Assembly (NCBI RefSeq): GCF_964199755.1
Contig: NC_133914.1
Span: forward strand, 186,001-250,000
DNA from: Larus michahellis
Taxonomy: Eukaryota > Chordata > Aves > Charadriiformes > Laridae
DNA length: 64,000 nt
Direction of reading: 5' to 3'
The number at the start of each line of letters is the position of its first letter. Position 1 is the stretch's first letter. This document shows, one piece after another, positions 45,701-48,700 of this stretch. A model generated the notes under the pieces. It was not told the DNA's origin. It did no database searches and saw nothing but the letters and a program-made list of their open reading frames with translations. The translations under genes were made by a program, and so were the position numbers.

Positions 45701-48700
45701 GTGCTTTAGGCAGTCCTGCTCTAGCAGGGGAGTTGGACTAGATGATCTCTAGAGGTCCCTTCCCACTCTGAAGATTCCGTGAATTGACAAAGTAGTCAGT
45801 CATTGTCCTATCCCGAGAGTTAAAATGTAAAGGTGACTCTGGTATTTGGGGGCAAAGGGGACATAATCTTGGCAGGGAAATATTTAGGAGGACATGAGAA
45901 GAGAGAGTCATGCAGTCCCCTTTAAACTGGGGATGTCAAGAAGGATGGAAAGAGTCAACAACTGTTACCTGTCTAATTTATGGCAAAACTGGGTCATGTC
46001 AGAGATGGCATCTGAATCTTTCCCACTTCTTGCAATATAGTGCTGGACTGGGAACACACGGTGCAGCAGGAAAGCAGAGGAAATCCAGACAAGCTCCCTT
46101 TCACCACAGTGGGACTTGTCTCTATGCCTTTGCAACATTTATTGCCTTCAGCTTTGGGTGGTACGAAAGGCACGTTATGCTAAATTAAGGGTTTTCAGAT
46201 AAATTACATCTCTGACAGATGAGTGCTAACAGTCATTTAGATTTTCTTTAATGTTATGAATGTCTCGCTGTTCTCCCCTTTCTAGGGTGTTAACCTGTAC
46301 ATTAAAAACCTAGATGACACTATAGATGATGAAAAATTGAGGAAGGAGTTCTCACCTTTTGGGTCAATAACAAGTGCTAAGGTACTGTGGACGTTTGGGG
46401 ATATTTGGATTTTAAAGCCTGAAGAAGGAACTATTATCGACATGGGATTGAATGGCAGTTCTTGTATCCCTTGGTCATTGTGGTCCTGAGAACATCTGGA
46501 CTAGTAAATACACAAATTTCTTTGGGTGTTGGTGGGATTTTGATGAAAACTTGCTTCATTCCCTCATCAAAAGAGCGGGCAGGAAGCAGCAGACATGCTT
46601 GTTTGAGGTGACTCCCAATAAGCATGAAATGGCATTTCCTTACGCGTGCGTAGAGACTGCACCAAATCTTTCCCATTCCTTACTGTGCAGTGTGGGCCTG
46701 GGGACACATGGTGCTTACAGAAAAGCAGAGTAAATCCAGGCAGGTGACGTCTCATTCAGTGAATACCTGTCTCTACACCTCTGCAACAGTTATGTCCTAC
46801 CTGCCTGAAAGCTGACAGGTAAAAACTGTGGATTCTTAGGCTCAGTTTTTGTAATGGTACTCCACTAGCAATTGATCTTTACTGCAGGTGATGCTGGAAG
46901 ATGGACGGAGCAAAGGGTTTGGCTTTGTCTGCTTTTCCTCTCCAGAGGAAGCTACGAAAGCTGTGACAGAGATGAATGGGCGAATTGTGGGCTCAAAGCC
47001 ATTGTATGTTGCACTTGCACAAAGGAAGGAAGAGCGAAAGGCCCATCTAACTAATCAGTACATGCAGCGCATTGCTGGGATGAGAGCCTTGCCTGCCAAC
47101 ACAATCATTAATCAGTTCCAGCCCGCTGCTGGAGGATACTTCATGCCTGCTGTGCCCCAGGTGAGCTGAGCTAGTGTGGCTTTCTAACCTGTCTTGGACC
47201 TTTGATGCTTCAGCTGCAGTAATCTTGTTGAGCCTTTCTTATGCCTGTAAGCAAATAACCCCTAATGAGGGGTGCAGTCAGTGGAGTTAATTCTGTGACT
47301 TCCCAGCTGCCTGTTCTCTTAATGTGAAGTGAGTGTTGAGTCCTGGCAACAACTGCCAAAACATGTTGTGTAAACAGTGTTATTCGCTTAGAAGTTGCCT
47401 CTGAGCTTGTCTGTCTGTCTTCAGGCTCAGAGCAGACCCACTTACTATGCACCCAACCAAATGGCGCAGATGAGACCCAACCCACGCTGGCAGCAGGGAG
47501 GAAGGCCTCAAGGTGAGTACACTAGAGACAATATTTTGGTTGTATGACTCTCTTGGCTATGCTTTCGGACAAGAACAATGCATGCTTCCTGTAGCTGACT
47601 GTCCTGACTTGCCAGTCAGTTCTGTTTTGAGGATTTCCCCTCATTTTTTCCATTAGGCTTCCAGGGAATGCCAAATGCCATGCGCCAGTCTGGACCACGG
47701 CCAGCACTGCGCCATCTGGCCCCTGCCGGTAATGCTCCGGCCTCTCGTGGCCTCCCTGCCGCTGCCCAGCGAGTTGGTAAGGTGTCTGCCTCCCAGGCTC
47801 TTCCCTTTGTCTGTGAGGGAGGAGGATGCTATTGAGACTTGACTTCTACTTCCCAAAGATGGTTGTCAGATATGGATAACCAAAGGCCACCTGGAGCAAG
47901 GGGCAGAGAGACAGCACCTGAACCTTTCCTATTCCTTGCTGTGCAGTGCAGGGCTGGAGACAGGTGGTGCTACAGCACAGCAGTGGAAATCCAGATGGGT
48001 TGTTTTCCACTGGTTTGGAACTCATCTCTACACCTCTGCAACATTTACCACTCAGAAAGAAAGGCTCTGTAGGTTATGGATATTGTTTTCGGAGTACAGC
48101 ATCCAAATTCGTTTTATTCCAGTGAATAACTAGAAAATATCTTAAATGCAGAATATGGCATGCATGGTTTAGTTCAGGGAGAACAGCCCCTTCCTGAAGT
48201 AGCCAGTTGCATTTTGGAGACACCAATTTCTAAAGTGTTACTATGCAGGGCATAGTTTGAATTCAGCAGTGAATATCAGACATGTCAACTTGCTTTCATG
48301 TTGCTACAGGTGTTTGTAATTCTGTTTTTTGCAGGCGTTGGCACTGCAGCGCAGAATTTAGCTCCTCGTCCGCCTGTAGCTGCCCCCGCTCCCAGAGCTG
48401 TTCCTCCTTACAAATATGCCTCAAGTGTCCGCAGCCCACACCCAGCTGTACAGCCTTTGCAGGTAACAAAGGGTCTGGGGTGTGAAGTCCCTGCAGTTAC
48501 TGCAATCCAATGGGTTTCACATGCAACTGAAGTGTTTTTACAGAAACGTCAAACTTACTTTTGTAACCCAGGCAGGCATCATAATTTGGAATTTAAAAAC
48601 CTGGCAGTTGTACTTTTGCTAAAGGCAACCTCGTTGGTTTATCTGTCTTGTACTTCTAAGCCCTTTTTTACACAGATTTGCTGTAAGGATATTTTTCTAG

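Follow-up and report, generated by a model that had tools for sequence, protein, structure and literature searches.

The human gene PABPC4 hosts one SNORA55, which is present in a single copy in that species. In chicken, Table 2 of Shao et al. (2009; PMC2653536) lists the snoRNA GGgACA4 with three isoforms, a length of 131 nt and the host entry "PABPC4 (intron 6,7,10)". The same table gives its target as 18S-36, recognized through an antisense of 7+4 nt in the 5′ pocket, and names U69/ACA55 as the mammalian functional homologs, with guide functions that cover isoform a only. This entry is the single mention of GGgACA4 in the main text of that paper, and in the text of section 7, which covers RT-PCR tests of 14 guide snoRNAs, its name does not appear (PMC2653536). 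About 90% of the chicken H/ACA snoRNAs are described there as singletons, and six as duplicated (PMC2653536).

Elsewhere, a hen transcriptome study places SNORA55 among a set of correlated genes (PMC6123486), and a review relays a cancer study that ascribes to SNORA55 a non-guide role connected with mitochondria (PMC10932220). A survey of avian RNAs reports an unexpected expansion in SNORD93 alone among the RNA classes, and its main text names no SNORA families (PMC4378963). Our literature search found no paper on GGgACA4 besides that of Shao et al. (2009), a single 2011 paper having matched GGgACA47 only, and no paper linking any two of SNORA55, SNORA69 and psi36.

Results

The window, that is, the whole 64 kb stretch of DNA that was analyzed, was scanned with the covariance models of 4227 Rfam families, and the only three matches at the curated cutoffs belong to SNORA55 (RF00431), for which the gathering cutoff is 45 bits; all three score at more than twice that value (Table 1). 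Exons of PABPC4 were placed by tblastn, using a working version of the human PABPC4 protein as query, and the intron borders (gt...ag) were read off the sequence; the numbering starts at the exon with the start codon, a possible untranslated first exon being uncounted. With this numbering, three SNORA55 paralogs lie in introns 6, 7 and 10 of PABPC4. The preliminary description had placed three paralogous H/ACA snoRNAs of this family in just these introns, and both the Rfam matches and the exon mapping bear it out: the SNORA55 covariance model returns three significant matches, not one only. The 3′ ends of copies 1, 2 and 3 are located 145, 95 and 287 bases from the 3′ ends of their introns, two of the borders used for these distances being 1 base short.

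Two relaxed Rfam scans were also carried out. In the scan of positions 36000-50500 (E ≤ 10), 8 of the 11 matches were further ones, all under the cutoffs of their own families, as were the 2 further matches among the 5 obtained in another scan, of positions 36000-56000. The matches to uxuA, NEAT1_2, SNORA14 (on copy 3), snoR113, U6, CLRN1-AS1, CrcZ and MIAT, all from the scan of 36000-50500, were dismissed as far under their cutoffs.

Table 1. Positions in the window of the SNORA55 copies, their host introns and their predicted guide segments
Feature	Position	Strand	Basis or remark
PABPC4 intron 6, host of copy 1	45245..46285	+	tblastn exons, gt...ag borders
SNORA55 copy 1	46008..46140	+	Rfam RF00431, 103.4 bits, E 3.4e-21, model 1-135 complete; lowest family score
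Copy 1 5′ pocket left guide AATCTTT	46015..46021	+	all 7 bases paired with 18S, downstream of U36
Copy 1 5′ pocket right guide AACA	46053..46056	+	3 pairs to 18S after a mismatch at the first base
Copy 1 3′ pocket left guide AAATCC	46081..46086	+	18S pocket scan
Copy 1 3′ pocket right guide CTATG	46122..46126	+	18S pocket scan
PABPC4 intron 7, host of copy 2	46382..46887	+	tblastn exons, gt...ag borders
SNORA55 copy 2	46659..46791	+	Rfam RF00431, 112.3 bits, E 1.8e-23, model 1-135 complete
Copy 2 5′ pocket left guide AATCTTT	46665..46671	+	7 pairs (AAUCUUU) around 18S U36
Copy 2 5′ pocket right guide GACA	46703..46706	+	4 pairs around 18S U36
Copy 2 3′ pocket left guide AAATCC	46732..46737	+	18S pocket scan
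Copy 2 3′ pocket right guide CTACA	46773..46777	+	18S pocket scan
PABPC4 intron 10, host of copy 3	47777..48334	+	tblastn exons, gt...ag borders
SNORA55 copy 3	47914..48046	+	Rfam RF00431, 123.5 bits, E 2.4e-26, model 1-135 complete; highest family score
Copy 3 5′ pocket left guide AACCTTT	47921..47927	+	one mismatch to 18S
Copy 3 5′ pocket right guide GACA	47959..47962	+	18S pocket scan
Copy 3 3′ pocket left guide AAATCC	47987..47992	+	18S pocket scan
Copy 3 3′ pocket right guide CTACA	48028..48032	+	18S pocket scan

The copies have the hairpin-hinge-hairpin-tail structure, as judged from the Rfam alignments and from a consensus fold with paired changes. With the Rfam borders, the ACA box is found 3 nt from the 3′ end in every copy, the tails of copies 1 to 3 being GCAACATTT, GCAACAGTT and GCAACATTT, respectively. 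An H box of the form ANANNA is present in the hinge of copy 2 (ACAGAA) and of copy 3 (ACAGCA). Copy 1 lacks an ANANNA at the usual place in the hinge and has only AAAGCA, which overlaps the 3′ stem. In copy 3 the basal pair of the upper stem is C-A.

Across the 37 pairs of the structure, 94.6% of the 111 cells (three copies) are paired and 10 pairs have changed on both sides, neither value being reached in any of 500 shuffles, and the count of further pair types was matched by 10 of 500 shuffles; it should be noted that the structure was derived from these same three sequences, so that the test is biased in its favor, and that related sequences can exceed shuffles of this kind. When the partners are slid by 1-3 columns, pairing falls to 37-52%. 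Single-sequence folding gives modest z-scores relative to shuffles (-2.93, -2.42 and -2.01 for copies 1, 2 and 3). Guide columns are invariant among the three copies in 18 of 22 cases, compared with 61 of 112 columns elsewhere (one-sided Fisher p = 0.014), in a test whose columns are not independent and whose segments were defined after the pockets had been inspected.

Candidate targets of the two pockets were scored at 395 uridines of a working version of the human 18S sequence, with pocket borders set by hand; the scan covered 18S only. For the 5′ pocket, U36 ranks first among the 395 uridines with each of the three copies and with the Rfam consensus, and its score was equalled in 1 of 200 shuffled 18S sequences for the consensus and in 16, 0 and 2 of 200 for copies 1, 2 and 3. 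Uninterrupted 7+4 pairing to 18S at U36 is seen in copy 2 only, copies 1 and 3 having one mismatch each (Table 1), and because of these defects copy 2 is the cleanest guide, even though copy 3 has the top family score. Since the table entry of Shao et al. was known before scoring and the borders were hand-set, the result for U36 is to be read as agreement and not as a blind prediction.

For the 3′ pocket, the best 18S site is U681, both in the consensus and in all three copies, 2-3 points above the next site. The left guide (AAAUCC) is invariant, and the right guide is CUACA in copies 2 and 3 and CUAUG in copy 1. The left arm forms 4 pairs with the U681 region and then meets a mismatch; copy 1 reaches the best U681 score, its right arm making 5 pairs, one of them G-U, by way of a two-base change. 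The U681 score was equalled in 19 (consensus), 22 (copy 1), 37 (copy 2) and 29 (copy 3) of 200 shuffled 18S sequences, and because shuffled sequences do as well this often, the match is not significant and complementarity alone proves nothing.

In human 18S, U681 is a measured pseudouridine whose guide is given as Unknown in a table from 2023 (PMC9941101), and a comment on uridine doublets uses the site by way of illustration (PMC11541003); a doublet at U681 agrees with the 18S sequence used here. Table 2 of Shao et al. (2009) gives no 3′ target for chicken GGgACA4 (PMC2653536), and our literature search, which covered few subscription journals, found no paper tying SNORA55 to 18S U681. We regard as doubtful the idea, suggested by the guide segments, that SNORA55 might be a double guide, with U36 in the 5′ pocket and U681 in the 3′ pocket, and that the three copies might share this work unequally. 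Under such a division copy 2 would keep the cleanest U36 guide, and copy 1, weakened for U36, would score best for U681. If true, the prediction would supply a guide for an rRNA site that is listed without one.

Local alignments between the copies score 49, 53 and 54, the highest values among 1000 shuffles per comparison being 13-15, and the pairwise identities are 93/125, 93/133 and 92/126 aligned positions (70-74%), or 70-73% over 128-133 columns by BLASTN. The flanking sequences, taken as 133 nt on either side of the copies, have pairwise scores of 7-11, within the range of shuffled sequences. Similarity ends near the ends of the RNA, with about 5 common bases (AGAGA) before it and few after it.

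Two other features of the window were recorded. PABPC4 intron 6 contains, at 45290-45800 and ahead of copy 1, a presumably CR1-like retroelement fragment, and a 77.8% identical stretch of it (266 columns) is found on the opposite strand at 51735-51994. The presence of this fragment points to a bird as the most likely source of the window, perhaps chicken or a species related to it. The open frame at 29346-29987 contains a Hairy Orange domain (Pfam PF07527, E 2.3e-11), the sole match among the 9 of 89 listed frames that were scanned, and is probably a HES/HEY gene. As HEYL is presumably the neighbor of PABPC4 in human, local synteny may be kept.

Discussion

Judged from sequence and structure, the SNORA55 H/ACA paralogs in introns 6, 7 and 10 of PABPC4 would be the counterparts of chicken GGgACA4, acting as guides for U36 and having been duplicated and then selected, a reading to which we assign a probability of about 0.93. 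Each copy would be freed from its spliced PABPC4 intron and would bind the H/ACA core proteins, and its 5′ pocket would position U36 of 18S rRNA for pseudouridylation. The copies themselves would be old duplications between introns of one gene, presumably kept by selection on both structure and guides.

An origin of the matches in chance or repeat-derived similarity, with no snoRNAs present, is refuted by the covariance scan, since the matches to the family are full-length (E 3.4e-21 to 2.4e-26) and the best other match of any copy within the window has an E value of only 0.076; we give it practically no credence. Considerably more weight, if still well short of an even chance, goes to the possibility that one or two copies work and that copy 1, perhaps together with copy 3, is decaying, still folding but guiding little. 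Copy 1 has the lowest family score, no H box in the standard place and a mismatch in its guide, and copy 3 combines a guide mismatch with a broken closing pair; yet all three copies exceed twice the family cutoff, their helices are preserved by paired changes, and three isoforms are counted in the same introns of the chicken gene (Table 2 of PMC2653536). Occurrence in these same three introns in chicken implies that the copies have long persisted, if the window comes from another bird. The higher or more flexible dosage that the preliminary description raised as a possible consequence of three copies is at present hypothetical, and copies 1 and 3 show small defects of guide or box.

How the copies arose is the second point on which alternatives have to be weighed. 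Local duplication from intron to intron, as the preliminary description had proposed, is supported by our results and matches the general explanation offered in the discussion of Shao et al. (2009), where almost all chicken snoRNA paralogs are traced to intragenic duplication (PMC2653536). Retroposition of the mature RNA into neighboring introns, instead of duplication of DNA, might account for a similarity that stops so close to the RNA ends, but we consider it improbable: the flanks of the copies show no direct repeats of 7-12 nt, the sole run of at least four A residues within 60 nt downstream is an AAAAA after copy 2, and three landings on the same strand of one gene would be unlikely by chance. 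Since flanks of such age would be eroded whichever of the two mechanisms applied, the evidence that they offer against retroposition is not decisive.

This locus stands close to systems that are already described. At the level of the family, the copies match SNORA55 (ACA55; RF00431) in full-length structure, guides and tail, whereas the PABPC4 gene of the window holds three copies and that of human a single one. With chicken GGgACA4, as given in Table 2 of Shao et al. (2009), they have in common the number of members (three), the PABPC4 introns 6, 7 and 10 and a 5′ pocket for U36; the 7+4 pairing of copy 2 equals the 7+4 nt given for the chicken RNA, and the lengths are 131 nt for chicken isoform a (PMC2653536) and 133 nt for the window copies with Rfam borders. 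The novelty implied in the preliminary description does not hold, as the same three introns had been printed for chicken in 2009 (PMC2653536). The copies in the window correspond to chicken GGgACA4 as it appears in that table, and the arrangement is already known; a triple set of H/ACA snoRNAs in one gene is uncommon, yet not unheard of.
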